A stretch of 64,000 nucleotides of DNA from Dictyophora rubrovolvata. Lineage: Eukaryota > Basidiomycota > Agaricomycetes > Phallales > Phallaceae. Made by a program: the position numbers and the translations under genes. The notes under the pieces were generated by a model. That model was not told where the DNA came from, searched no databases, and saw nothing but the letters and a program-made list of their open reading frames with translations. The stretch spans positions 1,116,001-1,180,000 of the forward strand of contig CP114123.1 of the NCBI GenBank assembly GCA_029959195.1. The letters are read 5' to 3'. Within the stretch, counting starts at the first letter, position 1; the number at the start of each line of letters is the position of its first letter. This document shows positions 13,170 to 23,348 of this stretch, in pieces.

Positions 13170-14858
13170 ATGTCTCACAGCATACAACAAACTTCGCACT
13201 TGGATGGACTCGTTTATCAAGGGTGAGTCATAACCACTGGATGCAAGTATTTCTTATGAATCAAAATATTTCAGAGTTATTCTTCGGTATTTTTACATGG
13301 CTAGCTGTGTCGTCTTCACTTATGATTATGGTAATTAATGCGCTTCGACGCTTGAGACATACCTTGGCTAATAATGTCATTGCATCCAAGTCCTTACCTT
13401 TCCCGAAGAAATTGACCGCATTTGGAAACGTCGTTTTACATTGCCAACCGTCGTGTTCCTCCTCCTGCGTTACATCACGCCTTTTGAGCTGGCTATATCA
13501 CTCGGTATGTACGAGCGTAGTTACTGAAATGTTAATTCACGATATACGTTGGTGTTTCAGGAGCGTTTTATCCTCAGATTGTCGCTGTTGTATGTCAAAC
13601 CCTACATCTCCTATTGACTGCTTGCGTTGAACCTTCTGTTCAGTTCTCGTACGGATTCAAAATGCCGTATCCCCATATTTTTCTTACGTAGAAGTTTTAG
13701 CTGTGAAATCTTGCGACTCATCGGAGTCCTTAATATCACGATAGTTACTCGTACGAAACCCAGTTACTCCACCATGTCCCCTCATACTTATCTGCTCGTA
13801 TTTAGTGATTGGTTGTAAGTTGTTCGACCATTTCTTTTTGTAAAATTTATTTTGCCTAGGTATTATGACTATTCGGACCATCGCACTTTACAACCACACC
13901 AAGATCATTTTATGGTCACTTTCCATCCTAATGCTGGGTCAAACTGTCATGATTTGCACGCTTTCCGGAAGTAAGCATTTCTTCCTTGTCATTAATACTT
14001 TAGAAAAATAATCCCGAATCCGATTAGTTGTCAGGGTGGTCTATGATAGTCATGATTTCCGCGGTAAACATTGTTTCATATATTGCTGACACAACTAAAC
14101 TGAACAGCCTTGGCGATCCCCCAGAATGTCATATCGATAGTTCAACAGATCTATATTTTAGTAAGCGTTTCGTCTGTTCTGCGTATTAGTGATATTAACA
14201 CATGACAGCTTCTCTTTGGTGGTGTCCTCTCGTAACTGACACCATAATGTTCTGTTTGACCGTGATCCGGTTACGGTCTTTGCGTAAATTCTCACATCAG
14301 AACTATTCGTATGTACTTGCCTTTTTTCTGTTTTCGATGACACTACTAACACGAACATACTAAGGTTATTTTATGTAATAATGCGGGATGGTGTCTCTTA
14401 CTACATCGTTATATGCCTCTTATATGTAGCAAACACCATAAATTGGCAGGTAAGGTTTTAGTAGAAATGAAGCGTTGATTCTAAACATTGTGCAGCTAAG
14501 TCCCGAGGTTTCTAAAATCGCCGGAGTAAAGTATGTACATCACGCTCCGCCTGTAACATTATCAAGTGCTGAGCCTCCTTACTGCAGCTTTGGACTATCA
14601 ATTCCTGCTATCTTGATATGCAGGCTTACATTGAATTTACAAGGAGTCCAACTTGAATCTCAGAACGATACAGACTCCTCCTTCTCAGGAGTATTGACCA
14701 CCCTTCCTTCAGTTCTCAGCCAACCGCCTCCTACGGGTTCAGTCTGGCTCACGGGCGAGAGATGGGATGGTATATGCTTCGAATACCCAGAAGACTCGGT
14801 TCGTGTCGTAGAAGAACAAGAAATACCTATGGACGTCCGTCAGATCACAGCCGCATAG
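13170..14858 (+). CDS. DUF6533 seven-helix membrane protein, copy 1
   Basis: 329 residues. Exons: 13170-13222, 13275-13330, 13391-13504, 13561-13589, 13644-13648, 13701-13750, 13806-13814, 13860-13970, 14028-14063, 14125-14160, 14209-14308, 14365-14449, 14496-14530, 14588-14858. The DUF6533 signature is TYDYVLTFPEEIDRIWKRR near residue 37, between helices 1 and 2. Seven hydrophobic stretches can be counted, ending in FGLSIPAILICRLTLNL, followed by a soluble tail with GVLTTLPS and VWLTGERWDG. The first ATG of the spliced frame is used. The 5-nt and 9-nt exons are needed to keep the frame and match the paralogues. The family is expanded in Agaricomycetes and has no established function; the seven-helix layout suggests a receptor or sensor, but that is inference. 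Confidence 0.8.
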
Positions 14859-16397
14859 TCAAGCCCGATTTCCTCAACTTCCCAAAATTAACATACCCCT
14901 GGACTATTACATCATAATATAATTTACTTTTAGATGATAAACGGTAGTTGATATCAGTTGATACCCTTTGTAGCCTTGTTTTTCGCTTGGAGAGGCAATA
15001 TGAACTGTTTCGAAAGTAAGTCACAATGCACATTTAATGATGTTATAGCAAAGATTGCATTGTATTACTATGTATCAAGAACATAATAGAATGTCAGTGT
15101 TTATTTATTACTCCTGTACAAATGTTAATTTGTTCTTTCAGACATTGTGAGGTCAAACAGGCCGAGTCATGCTCAGAGTTCGTGTCCTAACTAGGGTGCG
15201 ATGTAATGACTCGGACTTCCATAAGCCCCCTTTTCTGGTTTTCCTTCCTTTTAGATCTCAAAGTAGTCGGAAAACATTGAGAATTCCTTCCTGGCGAAAA
15301 AAATGCCTTTACATTCTCAACTCGGAAATTCAAGGAAAAGGCATCACCCGGCTTCTTTCGGGTGTTGTCTGCTCGTTCCGTCGGGATGTCTGGCGTGGTT
15401 TCTGAAGATCTGAACATTCATCGCTAGAACTCGATTCACTCAGGTACTTTGCCTGATTCTCCTTTTTTTTCCAGGAATTGCGGTCCCGAGCATCCTTCCG
15501 AAATAGGACATCGACGGAAAATTGAAGATTGCAGCGCTATAATGATAGGACATGCATCGGGATTCGGCTATCGCCAACCAGGTACGTAAACTTTTTATAC
15601 AAGCCATTCGTGCTATGTACTTACTACAAGTCGAAAGCAGTGCTTGTCCGTGCTTATCTTGGGTCAAAATTAAATTACACCTTTTTCGCTTTTTTTTTAA
15701 TATGGTGGCCATATGGTTTACTTGGCGTTTCTAGGATTGTGCGTGGTAGCAGTGATGGTGCAACTGTAGACACTAAATTTTCGTGAAAGAACTTTAAAAC
15801 TTAAAAGCACAAGCGCTCTTCTGTGATGTTGCGACTCTCAACAGCCAATACATTTGACCTGGCAATTTATTGTACATCCGTGATTGTATAAGCCTCCTTG
15901 AATGGGTTTTCTGCAATTCTGCAAAAGCGTCAAATTCGACCCATGGGACACCTCCGTCCCCTATTCATTAGCCCCATTAAGTGGCAAACGTTTGTCGTAA
16001 CCTTGTTCCTGTTCATTAAAAGATGATGATACCTTATCTTCGCTTATTCTCGCTTATAAGGACTAGAGCATTCACATCCAAATTGTGAGGTTCTATAAAT
16101 GCACTCTACTGCTATTTTTTGGGGGGTTGCGGACACGGTATTCGGTATATTCCGAGTCGCAATGTTGCAGCCTGAGGAGCCTGTATACGTTCAGTTATGT
16201 CTGTTATACTACTAACGGTCCGAACTCTCAGGCCCGTCTGCCATAAGCGTCGTCAGCGTTATTGCATAATACATGAGTATGTTGAGTATATTATCGCTTA
16301 TGACTACGCTGTTATTTAAATTGACAAGACCCAACCTAATACTAGTCTATGCCTTTTTAGGTCAGACTTATTTATACTCTTGGGTGACCATCCGGAA
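14859..16397. other. Spacer between DUF6533 copies 1 and 2
   Basis: Only short, unrelated frames of up to 90 codons. No relic of the neighbouring genes was recognised by eye, apart from promoter-like sequence near the right end. Confidence 0.4.
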
Positions 16398-16406
16398 TAT
16401 ATATAA
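16398..16406 (+). promoter_or_regulatory. TATA-like element of DUF6533 copy 2
   Basis: TATATATAA located 83-91 bases upstream of the ATG at 16489. Confidence 0.5.
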
Positions 16407-16488
16407 TCTGGCTGAACAAAGTTTCATCTAAACCATCTCCGCTCTTTTCACTAACTGGAGAAGTTTTCAGTCAAAGCAATTTTGTACC

Positions 16489-18222
16489 ATGTCGTTACAG
16501 TCCCTCAGTCCGCAGGAAGTGATAGCATTGCAGAACCAAGGGTGAGTAGTTGGAATGCCATTTCTTGGTATTAACGCTTCTCCCCTGAACACGAACCAAT
16601 TAGAGTTATCATTCGGTTTTGCTATCTTGCTGGTTGTGTAGTGTATGGTTATGACTGTGGTAATCTGACTCGAAGTATTTTCAGCACGCATGCTCAATTA
16701 AAAACTGACATATAACACTTGATTGGCATGATATCTACTATTAGTGCTCACCTTTTCTCAAGAGGTTGATTGTGTTTGGAGACGTCGCCTTACACTGCCG
16801 ACCATCGGTTTCCTTCTTCTACGGTATTCTGCACCTCTTGAACTCGCTTTATCAGTCGGTATGTGAGAACTACATATTTGGGACGAAATTTGTTCAGATA
16901 CTTGGCACTAGGCTTATTCTACCCTCCCTTCATCTCGGCGGTACGTCTATCATCCTTTTTCTAATTTACTTTGTATTTATCTCTCGTTCATAGCTATCGT
17001 AAGGAAACTGCATTATAGCGTCCATGTACAGCATCGACATGATTGATTTATCTTAGGTGTAAAGTTGTTCAAGCTATCGGCGGTCTTAATATCTTAGTAG
17101 TTATTTGTATGCATTTTTTAAGATATCTGCTTGTCTTTATTTGATTGTGATTTAGTAATCGGTTGTCAGTGGTTCAAAGTTTCAATTTTATAGACTTATC
17201 CTCAAGTTCGAGTCTTCAGGTATCATGGCTTTTCGGACCGTCGCTCTCTATAACCAAAATAAATTCATTTCATGGTTGCTTTCCGCCTTGGTCCTTGGCC
17301 AAAGTGTTATGTTGGCAGTGGTTGCTAGCGGTGAGTTTATGATCCTTCAAGCTATATCACGAGCAACTATAATATTGGCTAGGTGTCACTGTAAAGTATG
17401 ACATCCACTCAGGGGGTAAATACATATGCTTTCCATACAATGTTTTCATAACCTCAGGTCAAATATTTTTTACTTCTTGTCAGGATGTATCACGGAAAGT
17501 CCTACAGAACTTTATATTAGTGAGCATATACATGATGTTTACGTTTTGTTACAGTGTTTTCTGACGAAACTCTGTAGCTGCACTTTGGTGGTGTCCTCTG
17601 GTAGTTGACACCGTAATTTTCGTTTTGACGGTGATTCGACTACGGTCATTGCGCAAAGTTATGCGTTTAAATTATTCGTATGGCATATACTTCTTTCGTT
17701 CAACCCTAAACAATCTTAATAAACTTAGGTTACTTCATGTGATAATGCGCGATGGTGTCTTTTATTACATTGTAATATGTCTCGTATATGTTTCAAACAC
17801 TATTAACTGGATGGTAAGAACATGTGAGATTGTATGATCCTGAACATAATAACACTATATATAGGTTAATTCTGGTCCTTCTAAAATTGCTGGACTGAAG
17901 TAGGTTGCGCCCCGTCCTTTCTGATACTACTGTATGAGCTCACAATTCCTTCTTCAGTTGCGGATTAGCACTTCCTGCTGTCATGATATGCAGGCTTACG
18001 CTGAATCTACAGGCTGTTCGGTCTGCGTCTGACGATTCGACCGTCACGTCCGACGGTACAAACTCGGGGGTATTGACCAGCGCTCCGTCACTGATTCTTA
18101 GTCGATCCGCTTGGCTGACCGGTGAAAGATGGGATGGCATATACCCCGAACAGCCAGATGAAACTGACGTCGTGAGAGAGCGAGAGATACCTTTGAGGGT
18201 GCTTCAAGTTGAGATGACTTGA
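16489..18222 (+). CDS. DUF6533 seven-helix membrane protein, copy 2
   Basis: Closest relative of copy 1, with the same exon plan. First exon MSLQSLSPQEVIALQNQG, then VIIRFCYLAGCVVYGYDCV and the signature LTFSQEVDCVWRRR. Later blocks shared with copy 1 are LIGCIMAFRTVALYN, LWWCPLVVDTVIF, VIRLRSLRK, VIMRDGV and GLALPAVMICRLTLNLQ, then the tail SAWLTGERWDG. The 5-nt exon is 16994-16998 and the 9-nt exon 17156-17164. The stop is TGA at 18220-18222. Apparent length is about 330 residues. Copies 1 and 2 share even their C-terminal tails, so they look like the most recent duplication in the array. Function unknown. Confidence 0.8.
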
Positions 18223-18807
18223 TAGAGGAGAAAAAAAAACTTGTTTGTAATGATAGGACTGCGTTGATTAGACTCGAAAAACTGCTTCCCTAGTAGATCT
18301 TTGATGCTAGGCAAGTAAATAGGGTTCGATCCTTCAACCAGTGACTAGTGACCGTTGACAATGATACTGGAGATGTCATGTGAGACACGGTAGCCCTTAA
18401 CCGTACTAGGGGCTATTATATTTTGTCACTTGCGGTGCGAACCTTGCTTCTCGAAGACTGCGGAAACCTATGAGACAGAAGTGCCCGTGTGTGTATGTCA
18501 AATTTTGGACCATATCCAAGGGCTGAAAAAGTGAGGGAGTCTCATCCGAACACATGATTATGGGAGGTGGAATACCGCCTGTGGTACTCGGAGGTACTTG
18601 AGGCTGTTCAACCTCTGACCACTGGTAACCTTGATCAACCGGATACCTTTGATTTCACACGACTCCAGTGTTCTTTCATTGACGGTGAGACATTGAGTAG
18701 ATGAACAATTTGGGATTTGCCAATTGTGTTCGCGAGGGTAAAAAGAATGTCGAGGTTGAGCTTCTGGAAGACTGTTGGGCCGTGTTAGGCCCTCGGGCTG
18801 TTGGGTG

Positions 18808-18882
18808 GACCTTTACCCGGTCTTGGATTAGGAATTCCCGCGGTTACGATGCGCAAGCTCAGCGTAGATTTACAGGGTCATG
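18808..18882 (+). pseudogene. Relic of a DUF6533 gene (last helix only)
   Basis: The stretch around 18815-18880 reads GLGLGIPAVTMRKLSVDLQ, matching GLALPAVMICRLTLNLQ in copy 2. By hand alignment about two thirds of 56 bases agree with copy 2 at about 17952-18012. Nothing upstream matches the other exons and the downstream tail motifs are absent, so this looks like the remnant of a decayed fifth copy. Confidence 0.55.
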
Positions 18883-19325
18883 CTGGAGGAAGGGCGGTGG
18901 GCAAGTGGCATGTTGATGCGCACGGCCTCGCGCTGTTTCGCACGTCAATAACGAAGCCGCGGCACTGTGTCAATGGTGCATTGGCAAATACTGCACCATT
19001 TGTACGTGATCATTCCAATCCAACCCGGGGTCGTCGCCATCACCATCAAAGTGCATTGATACACACCACGCACGCATCATTCATTACAGCCCATTGTACT
19101 TTTCGCAGAAATAAAATTCACTCTTGAATTGCGAATTTATCCGAACTAAACGGATTTTCGAAAAAAAACGAGCACTGTTAAAATTGGGTTGATCGCGATT
19201 GGCCACGCGCTGTGAGCCTTGCTGTGTAACGTGGCGGCTGTTTCGGGTAAGCCCCTCGGTTACAAATCAGGCCGAGAACCTCGAAACCTCAACGCGCCTT
19301 ATCGGAGGCAAATTCCTCGCCTGGC

Positions 19326-19333
19326 TATAAATA
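19326..19333 (+). promoter_or_regulatory. TATA box of DUF6533 copy 3
   Basis: TATAAATA 75-82 bases upstream of the ATG at 19408. The spacing matches copies 1 and 2. Confidence 0.5.
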
Positions 19334-19407
19334 GATTTCTGCCCGCACCTGGGTCACTTTTCTGTTGCAGCCTTCCCTTTCTTCCCTTTGTCTGTATACC
19401 CAATGAC

Positions 19408-21202
19408 ATGAGCATCACTCTCCCTATACCACCACACCATGGTGCAACAGCGACAAGCATTGAGCATTTGTGAGTTGTTCATATAGCTCGTCCATCCCTG
19501 GCAGGGTCTGAAGTCATCATCTTGTCAAAGGCAAATACTTCGATACGCTTACCTCGCGCCGAATGTTCTGCTGCTCTACGACCACGGTGAGGCTTTTCAA
19601 GCTTATGATATATTTTCTTTGCTGATAAATGATGTTTTCCAATGAACAGTCTTGACTTTAGCATCTGAAGTCGAGCAAATATGGTGTCGAAAACTCACTC
19701 TCCAATCGTTTCTATTCCTCTTACTACGGTACCTCAGTCCCTTTCAGGCCATGTTCTTTTCGCTTTGTTAGTGTCCTTTTTTTGACTGCGTTATGTACGT
19801 GTACATTATTAAACTCCTGTGCTACAGCCATTTTTCCCTTTGTAACAACCGTAAGTCTGTCCTTTTTCTTTTTTTCGTATCTTGTTTTTCTGATATACAG
19901 TATCTAGCTTCCGTATGTCTCCCTCTAAAAACCTAATAGACTGTTAACGAATTTGTTTGCCTTTCCAACAAAGGTGTACTATATTCATTCGTATTCCTCC
20001 CATTTTATCTATTATACAGAGTGCATGTATGTCTTGTTTCAATCCTTTCCACATTCGGTTAACTAATGATCGGGGTAATTTAGCCATCGGAGGCAAGTAC
20101 TTTCCGATCCCTCAACGAGTGGCGTGACTAAAATCTAGCTATAATATGTAGGTATCATGATCCTTCGAACCTACGCTCTTTATGAACGTAATAAACACAT
20201 GGCGATCGTTCTGCTGTTACTACTTCTATCACAGATCGTAGTCATGGGTGTTTTGACGGGCAGTATGTCTTTCTCGCCGTACCTTCATTTGCCAGATCGA
20301 TCTTAAATATGTCCCTGCAGGTGTCACGTTTTCAATGGGCAAGCATGGATGCACGGCCGTCAAAGGTGGAAATTTTATCAGTACGTGTCTTGTAGTGAAA
20401 AAAAATACAAATACAAGGGCGACGTCGCAATGACGTGCCTTTTCTAGCTTTTTTTTGGTGGTCGCCTGTGGTTCTCGACACGGTCGTTTTTATTTCCACA
20501 ATATCTAGACTACATCACTTTCGCAAGATTCGGGAAAGGGTTTCGTAAGTTGATATATATTCTTTCGACTTTTATAACTTGACCTGCTGACGAGGATTCC
20601 GTTTCGCAGAATATTTAGAATTCTTTTAAGAGACGGTATTATGTATTATGTGATTATTTGTAGCCTTAACATCACCAATGCTCTCTTTTTTCTCGTACGT
20701 TCATCTATTGAACTGTTGGGACCTGAACCTTGCTTGCTTAGACTCTCACTAGTATGCAATGCCAGGTTTAAAGCCTATGGGCATTAGGTTAGTACTTAGT
20801 TGGTTAATTCCTCAACATGTTTGATGATCTTTGATCCCCGTTAGTTTCGGCGTTTCTATCTCAGCGGTCATCACATCACGACTTGTTCTTAATTTACACA
20901 GTGCTCAATCCAGTATGGCCCAGGCCGAAAGAAGTAATCAAACAGAACAAGACGTCGGTGTTTTGACGACGATACCCTCCATATATGTTGCACCTCCTGA
21001 ATTTGATGCATATCCTTTACATGACTTTCCACATCGATGTCACGACGACAACAATTCCTGGTATACGAATGAAACGTCGGATGTGTCGGATGCGAGGAAG
21101 GATCATGATTTGGGGGCTGACACTGTCACTGTTCCAAGGTCTACTAGTACACTTCATACTACGTCTTCTCCGTTCAGTTATAATATTACAGAATGGACTT
21201 GA
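19408..21202 (+). CDS. DUF6533 seven-helix membrane protein, copy 3
   Basis: More diverged copy. The start at 19408 gives MSITLPIPPHHGATATSIEHL before the first intron; an ATG at 19403 meets a stop at once. The signature YDHVLTLASEVEQIWCRK is the closest in the array to the usual family form. Further blocks are LRTYALYERNK, FFWWSPVVLDTVVF, LLRDGIMYYVIICSLNITN and GVSISAVITSRLVLNLH. The tail holds GVLTTIPS and is rich in Asp, Ser and Thr. The 5-nt exon is 19908-19912 and the 9-nt exon 20084-20092; the intron after the latter (20093-20151) has a GC donor. The stop is TGA at 21200-21202. Function unknown. Confidence 0.78.
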
Positions 21203-21614
21203 AAAAAAAAACGGACAAAGCCGAGTAAGACAAATCTATATATTGTAGCGCTAAAATCTTTTTGGGCGTGTTTTTAAATTGAACAAATCACTCGCTTACA
21301 CTGGACATTCTGACGCGTTTGGCGTCACGACCGTGGCAATACATGGATCTTGAAAGGCCTCAACCCGACGAGCAAGCGAGCCATGCAAGAGGTGACGGAG
21401 GTGCATGTGTGTATATGATGAATGCCCCCATATATTCAAGCTCTCTTTTAAGCGTTTCTATTCGGTTGTAAATTTAGCTCCAATCTTATAAGAAAGTTCG
21501 CAAACCGAGGCAATGATACAACTTCGTCCAAGTCTCTCTCTCTCTCTCACGTATACTTACTTCTTCAACTTCAGATGACCTAGGTGGATCGGCGTTATTG
21601 CATTTGCGATTACG

Positions 21615-23348
21615 ATGGACAATTACATCGCGATGGCCTTTAGAGTGTATGTCGATGTGATACGCTAATGACGAATGCTTTTATTGAACTTCTTTCCTCA
21701 GACAGGTGATGCATTATGTAGTCCTTGTACCGACTATTGTCCTCTATTACGATCATAGTATGTCATAGAAGTTTGGCAACGCTCGCTGAACTAATGATGA
21801 TATTGAACAAGTTTTGACTTTCGCTCAAGAAGTGGAGTGGATCTGGAAGAGAAAGCTAACTTTGCCAACTTCCTTATTCCTGATCCTTCGCTATTCCGCT
21901 ACAATCTGGGAGGTTATGTTTCTCTCTCGTGCGTCCGTCTTTCACTCAGAACTAGTTCGCGGATTGATCATGTGTACTCCGGGATCAGTTCTATTGAATG
22001 TTTCGTTTTACCGCCACCTCAAAGTAAGTGTCAAGATGATCTCTCTTTTTGTAGTGAAGCTTACAAACCTTATTTTTTTTCTTTAACAGTTATCGTATGT
22101 GGATGCTTCCTCTAGTCATGAGTTGTGTAGCGAGCATTATCATGTTCGGCAGTTGTACATTCATGGTCAAGGTGCCTATGGCGTACTTTATTCTCCATAC
22201 CGCTGGTAAGTCTTCACGGAGTGTATGCTCGACCACGCTCTGGCTTAACTTCAATCCGGGACCAAAGTCGTAGAAAGTGAGTTCGGGTTTGCTTTCACTT
22301 GATGTTATTAAATTGACATACAACATGCCAGTCATTTTAATGCTACGGACGTACGCTTTATATCGCTGTAACAAAATGGTGCTGGCCATTCTTTCGGGGT
22401 ATATTTTATCACAGTTCATTTCAACAGTGGTCATTACATTAAGTGAATTCGCCAGACGTCTCATATGACGCGTATGTTCTAATGCATTCTTTTGTATAGA
22501 TGCTCAAAGCGACTCGTCGAGCATGGTAAAGCCCGAAACTTTGGTCCATCCGACGGCATCGGTCAAAGTACCCGACTGCTCTATCAATTTCCATAATAAT
22601 AGCATAAGTGTGTCCGAAATAATTCTTTAAATTCTCTTTGCTAACGCAGAACTCAAACAGCGCTTTTCTGGTGGCTTTCTGTCGGATTTGATAGCCTTGT
22701 CTTTGTTTTGACTTTCTTCAAAATAAATTATCTTCGAAAAAAGATCTCTCCGGACAAGTTTCCGTTCGTTTAGTGTTATAGTTTTCGATTGTATATTATT
22801 GACCAAATGTTTGTCATAGGCTGTTAAAGGTGATAACTCGGGATGGGTTGATATTCTACGTGGTAATCTGCTTCTTTAACGTCCTCAACGTTTGGTGCTA
22901 TTTTGTAAGTTCATTGGTCAAACCCGATCTTATTCTTCGGTAGTACTCAAGCCGTCTTGTCTCTACATTAGTTTCTAGGACCCGAGTTAAAAGTGGCGAG
23001 CATAAGGTATAGCACCAACTTTACACAAACCTACGTTTTCAATCCATATCAACTGACTGGCACCCTCATTATCCCTTTTCCGAAAAAAGCTTTTCGTTCG
23101 GTTTCTCAACAACAATGGTCACACGCCTTGTCCTAAACATTCAAGACTTATCCCGGCAAACCGTCGGAAGACTTTCGACCTATAATATCAACCAAGACGG
23201 CGAAGGTTCAAGCCAATGGGAAACAGGCGACTTGGACGACGGCGTCTTGACGACTACACCTTCTGTTTTTATCATCCACGCTGGCGCTAATACTGCCAGC
23301 CGAACTCTCAAGCGTTCTGTGTGGAACTCAATCGAGGATCTGCATTAA
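21615..23348 (+). CDS. DUF6533 seven-helix membrane protein, copy 4
   Basis: Most diverged copy. First exon MDNYIAMAFRV, then VMHYVVLVPTIVLYYDHI and the signature LTFAQEVEWIWKRKLTLP. Later blocks are VVEIILMLRTYALYRCNK, LFWWLSVGFDSLVFVL, VITRDGLIFYVVICFFN and GFSTTMVTRLVLNIQ; the tail has DDGVLTTTPSVF. The 5-nt exon is 22090-22094 and the 9-nt exon 22268-22276. The intron near 22760-22819 has an unsure donor (two weak GT sites); its acceptor is at 22819. The stop is TAA at 23346-23348. No clear TATA box was found at the spacing seen in copies 1-3. Confidence 0.75.

Follow-up and report, generated by a model that had tools for sequence, protein, structure and literature searches.

Exons of only a few nucleotides have been reported from several organisms. 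In the CYP621A P450 genes of Fusarium, a 1-nucleotide (nt) exon is supported by RNA (PMC12940212), and in the P450 genes of Phanerochaete chrysosporium the shortest exon has 6 base pairs (bp) and introns of 45-55 bp are frequent (PMC1184071). Conserved micro-exons of plants include the 1-nt exons of APC11 and VPS55 (PMC8831610), the micro-exon of MPC1 has 4 bp (PMC9929638), and that of Xlr2 in Trichoderma is included in a glucose-dependent manner, giving two isoforms (PMC11121469). Here we describe a stretch of 64,000 nt from the basidiomycete Dictyophora rubrovolvata (contig CP114123.1, positions 1,116,001 to 1,180,000; hereafter the window), in which four tandem DUF6533 genes (genes 1-4) appear to share a micro-exon of 5 nt, and compare them with DUF6533 loci elsewhere in the genome, many of which seem to carry a counterpart of 8 nt.

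The case is close to that of Fusarium in being fungal, frame-essential, not a multiple of three in length and placed between two introns, and in both a relative without the intron serves as a length marker that supports the exon. The Fusarium exon, however, is a single nucleotide in the orthologues of one ascomycete genus and was seen in RNA reads, whereas here exons of 5-8 nt, as read from the sequence, recur among dozens of paralogues within a single genome. The P450 genes of P. chrysosporium are likewise basidiomycete genes with very short exons and short introns, but in our genes a single exon position is maintained across two subfamilies. Plant micro-exons, which have RNA support, resemble those of this fungus in their conservation throughout a family, in the survival of their bases within a larger exon after intron loss, and in being often missed by annotation. 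The MPC1 micro-exon is also constitutive and of a length that is not a multiple of three, but it is a single case with minigene tests; Xlr2 offers another fungal micro-exon, but its inclusion is regulated, and nothing comparable is shown here. The preliminary description of the window placed five bases near the lower limit for a spliced exon, which is at odds with the 1-nt exons of Fusarium (PMC12940212) and plants (PMC8831610). The literature that was searched, with most subscription journals outside it, contained no description of this DUF6533 micro-exon in its accessible parts; in those of two basidiomycete genome papers, micro-exons are named only as an aligner setting. We regard the exon as a new case of a known phenomenon, in which the notable feature would be its presence in some 51 paralogues of a single family within the genome (5 nt in 6 of them and 8 nt in 45, from 104 loci).

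A probable 5-nt exon of the window genes

Each of the four genes contains, as had been described, a pentamer that is preceded by ag, followed by gta and read from phase 0 to phase 2 (the features given here for genes 1-4 lie on the + strand). In gene 1 it is TTCTC at 13644..13648, between introns at 13590..13643 (54 nt, phase 0, stopless) and 13649..13700 (52 nt, phase 2). Gene 2 has CTATC at 16994..16998 between introns of 53 nt (16941..16993) and 58 nt (16999..17056), and gene 3 has CTTCC at 19908..19912 between introns of 57 nt (19851..19907) and 61 nt (19913..19973). The pentamer of gene 4, TTATC at 22090..22094, was obtained by enumeration and is bypassed in the automatic model; its introns are at 22024..22089 (66 nt) and, in the best reading, 22095..22152 (58 nt). 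In the spliced frames the five bases supply one codon and two further bases and then lead into a conserved Cys codon, giving V-FS-C, A-LS-C, T-LP-C and K-LS-C. That a 5-nt exon has been kept by the four diverged copies, as previously proposed, is the best reading of these data.

The earlier claim that the frame is lost without the exon was borne out. Skipping the five bases leads to stops in all four genes, immediately in genes 1 and 2, about 31 codons on in gene 3 and about 33 codons later in the partial model of gene 4; retention of the upstream intron of gene 1 would nevertheless keep the frame.

For genes of the window type, we searched the stretch that runs from the RY codon up to that for Cys and enumerated all in-frame splice solutions with at most three introns. 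Six genes were covered, the four of the window and the paralogues L052 and L108 from contig 8 (L numbers denote loci), the latter two carrying the 5-nt exons CTTCC and ATTAA. A 5-nt exon was part of the top three-intron solution in all six. Among 3000 dinucleotide shuffles, an exon no longer than 20 nt arose in 1156, and a 5-nt exon was the best one in 103; the observed score was matched by 18 of them when any exon length was allowed and by 2 with a 5-nt exon.

A probable 8-nt exon of the sister subfamily

The genome of 28.2 Mb in 11 contigs gave 144 listed DUF6533 (PF20151) matches out of 150 scored candidates. Four of the listed matches fall in the four window genes, all of which have above-cut-off PF20151 places in this genome search; in a further run of the Pfam profile, the cut-off was passed by genes 1, 3 and 4 and by the sister gene L074. 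Many of the 144 listed matches lie on contig 7, several of them closely spaced. We applied a purpose-written spliced profile aligner to 104 loci, comprising the four window genes and 100 of the 140 stretches around the other DUF6533 matches. Enumeration of the sister type was confined to the 61 loci with a score of at least 220 (about 40 of the 104 fell below), and five of these (L030, L010, L011, L067 and L018) were removed for the size of the interval, leaving 56. The assignments of exon form exclude L012, L026, L018, L046 and L047.

An 8-nt phase-0 exon was the best solution of 20 nt or less in 42 of the 56 loci. Three further genes were added by inspection (L043, where 8 nt was the runner-up by 0.3, L021 and L068), bringing the number to 45. 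The upstream intron is in phase 0 in all 45. In 44 of them an AG is found at a distance of exactly 4 nt upstream of the Cys codon, and L058 uses one that lies 1 nt upstream. The flanking introns range from 45 to 80 nt upstream and from 45 to 70 nt downstream, and the constancy of the exon length between introns of variable length is the main argument for the exon. Its last base is G in 41 of the 45 genes, preceded by A in 36, and the encoded residues are mostly S, P or L, then G or E, then R or S. When the exon is skipped and the next intron is spliced, a stop follows within 36 codons in 39 genes, and the other 6 have no stop in the modelled stretch, which in one model is only 34 nt long. As a separate observation, many of the introns after the 8-nt exon (45 loci) end in AAG, against 2 of 44 at the neighbouring site.

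In shuffles of the sister type, 24 of 698 solutions of 20 nt or less were 8 nt long. The next intron of the same genes served as a control: in its natural interval, an exon of at most 20 nt could be fitted in 3 of 59 loci, and in 2 loci the margin over the one-intron reading exceeded 20 units. Because that interval is shorter than the test site, which flatters the result, the control was stretched to a matching length (median 183.5 vs 181 nt). Of the 58 loci of the length-matched control, 14 then had such a solution, and in one locus it was 8 nt long, whereas the test site gave 49 of 56 and 42 of 56, respectively. Shuffles and control intron together make a chance origin of the micro-exon pattern unlikely.

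Natural variants and phylogeny

Several loci depart from the common arrangement. In L062, which is placed among the 8-nt genes in the tree, AGTCGAAG is fused to the next exon, so that the exon has 73 nt (8 + 65) and the downstream intron is absent; L010 and L011 have exons of the same 73 nt (8 + 65) at the same place, again without the downstream intron. The bases of the micro-exon thus behave as coding in these three loci. Five other loci have a single intron before the same 65-nt exon, of 92 nt in L031, 94 nt in L059, 105 nt in L034, 130 nt in L013 and 101 nt in L022. Their donor has apparently moved into the former upstream intron, and the micro-exon was probably lost there by turning into intron. 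L009 and L048 read as having an 11-nt exon, L069 as having a 14-nt exon with a gc donor, and L047 has an 88-nt exon with the downstream intron absent in the model. In L030, a long insertion with GATCAGG-like repeats separates the DUF6533 exon from the Cys exon, and the interval measures 1668 nt.

A variant of the window type was found in L067, where CTATC followed by gtaagt is retained (L067:955-959) and the upstream AG acceptor is missing. The upstream intron of this locus is stopless, the aligner reads a single 94-nt exon, and the former intron seems to have become coding. In a tree of 72 rows and 95 columns, few columns for that number of rows, the seven window-type genes (1-4, L052, L108 and L067) were grouped with a support of 94 in the Shimodaira-Hasegawa-like approximate likelihood ratio test (SH-aLRT), apart from a clade of 57 rows containing the 8-nt genes (SH-aLRT 96). 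As far as these gene models and the tree can tell, the micro-exon is not confined to the tandem array and predates it.

Retrocopies, which would act as natural complementary DNA, were sought by protein searches of the same genome; the 67 and 3 matches obtained were all exon by exon. In the search with 67 matches, the stop-free matches covering the Cys all start at or after residue 16 of 66, so none of them spans both junctions with real flanks. No relatives were confirmed in a collection of prokaryotic contigs (one window-type alignment) or in viral contigs (one sister-type alignment), and both collections are uninformative on fungi.

Interpretation and alternatives

We consider it very probable, from the gene models and their comparison, that genes of the DUF6533 membrane family contain two short U2-type introns with a micro-exon of 3n+2 bases between them, and that this exon is constitutive and required for the frame. 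The pair of introns most likely predates the split between the window subfamily and the larger sister subfamily, and the exon enclosed by it would have 5 nt in genes of the window type. In the sister type its usual length would be 8 nt, and forms of 11 and 14 nt apparently occur in a few loci. Since the introns are short (mostly 45-80 nt), intron definition is the probable mode by which each is recognised. Their removal may be sequential, as an exon of this size would be too short for simultaneous occupation of its two splice sites. Inclusion in the messenger RNA would add one or two whole codons and two bases of the next just before the conserved Cys, in what may be the loop before the third helix, and skipping would shift the frame. 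The end of the 8-nt exon, (A)G, suits pairing of U1 with the following gta, as judged from the bases; in the six 5-nt exons the last base is C or A, so that recognition of their donor would have to depend on its intronic bases.

Several points weigh against this explanation, and those that concern single introns are taken up with that alternative below. Because an added intron carries no penalty in the splice score, the meaningful comparison is that with shuffles. The 45 genes were selected for having the 8-nt exon. Beside the 42 loci of the 56 in which it was the best solution, seven had no solution by the automatic rule, two had 11 nt and five had other lengths; in two of the 45, the acceptor of the top-scoring solution lay 13 or 16 nt upstream of the Cys. 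Taken singly, 32 of 49 genes had their observed score reached by at least one of 60 shuffles, and paralogues are not independent observations. We grade the evidence per gene as moderate. A test for purifying selection on the bases of the micro-exon, made on 30 gene pairs whose exons are 75-85% identical, found none: over its first six positions the 8-nt exon was 58% identical, against 81% for aligned intron interiors, although shuffled introns align at 62% and intron identities are inflated in distant pairs. Because the bases are no better conserved than introns, the support for the exon comes from length, phase and splice sites rather than from sequence constraint. The encoded residues seem free to change, with only length and phase held.

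It is possible that one longer intron with shifted sites, or the retention of one intron, keeps the frame, and that the bases form no separate exon at all. The stopless upstream intron of gene 1 and the loss of the acceptor in L067, with its single 94-nt exon, fit this explanation, as do the single introns of 92-130 nt in L031, L059, L034, L013 and L022. In gene 4 the automatic full-length profile run took a path without the micro-exon, which local enumeration preferred; a profile run that recovered it was circular, the gene 4 protein being part of the profile. An in-frame alternative with one intron (introns of 76-155 nt, or retained intron sequence) was available in 34 of the 45 eight-nt genes. 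These alternatives, however, vary from gene to gene and are lacking altogether in 11 of the 45, and single introns of 95-155 nt would be out of keeping with a neighbouring intron that measures 43-60 nt in 44 loci. In 48 of 56 loci, compared to 7 of 58 in the length-matched control, the two-intron solution either led its one-intron rival by over 20 units or had no such rival. We hold an explanation by single introns to be quite improbable.

Two adjacent short introns in a fungus also recall stwintrons, which have been described in fungi and in which one intron interrupts a splice site of the second while nothing exonic separates the two. This was rejected by phase: in the 45 eight-nt and the six 5-nt genes the upstream intron has phase 0, whereas the Cys exon starts in phase 2, so that total removal of the intervening bases breaks the frame. 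We give such nesting almost no weight. Another explanation would make the exon a regulated switch, with inclusion giving a receptor-like protein and skipping giving a transcript with an early stop. The stops that follow skipping in 39 of the 45 eight-nt genes and, as modelled, in window genes 1-4 would be expected from it, as would the maintenance of the 3n+2 class across exon sizes of 5, 8, 11 and 14 nt. However, a constitutive exon predicts the same pattern, the sequence holds no sign of regulated skipping, six of the 45 genes have no stop in the modelled stretch, and L062, L010 and L011 do without the arrangement. It is unlikely that regulated inclusion gates a large basidiomycete family of proteins resembling seven-transmembrane (7-TM) receptors. 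If it did, dozens of paralogues could be silenced together through one change in splicing fidelity.

Annotation often misses exons of this kind, as two reports state (PMC12940212, PMC8831610), so the predicted proteins of this expanded family may all carry an error at this one site. The apparent natural variants, namely exons of 5, 8, 11 and 14 nt, an absent downstream intron, a lost acceptor with a coding intron, and long single introns, would form a ready set for studying how very short exons splice, drift in length and vanish.

Whole-gene models and a possible second micro-exon

With the 5-nt micro-exon and the 9-nt exon described below both included, genes 1, 2 and 3 could be modelled with zero internal stops. 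Gene 1 (13170..14858) has a complete frame of 14 exons and 329 residues plus stop, with an exon of its C-terminal part at 14125-14160. The frame of gene 2 (16489..18222) is also complete, with 14 exons and 326 residues plus stop, as is that of gene 3 (19408..21202), with 13 exons and 356 residues plus stop and an exon of the C-terminal part at 20753-20787. Gene 4 was placed at 21615..23153; its 3' part is given by the automatic model alone and its end is approximate. Seven membrane helices are predicted for the DUF6533 protein SNB1 in the available part of its report (PMC10949477), and simple hydropathy gave 6 hydrophobic segments in gene 2. A comparison of gene 2 with solved structures gave zero matches at E up to 1. 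The residues of the micro-exon directly precede the Cys, after which comes a strong hydrophobic segment (residues 92-110 in gene 2), and a second Cys is found further downstream in all seven window-type genes. As a guess, the two Cys residues might form a disulphide like that of many 7-TM receptors.

One exon further on, a second micro-exon of 9 nt, read from phase 1 to phase 1, fits all seven window-type genes (1-4, L052, L108 and L067). It is the best two-intron solution in six of them and the second-best in gene 4 (77.7 vs 80.5). Its candidates are TGATTGGTT at 13806..13814 in gene 1, TAATCGGTT at 17156..17164 in gene 2, CCATCGGAG at 20084..20092 in gene 3 and TCGTAGAAA at 22268..22276 in gene 4. 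Since 9 nt is a multiple of three and skipping would preserve the frame, and since the automatic model of gene 3 omits this exon, the evidence for it appears weaker than that for the 5-nt exon. In gene 3 the 9-nt exon is followed by a gc donor, and the intron after it (20093-20151) is an apparent GC-AG intron.

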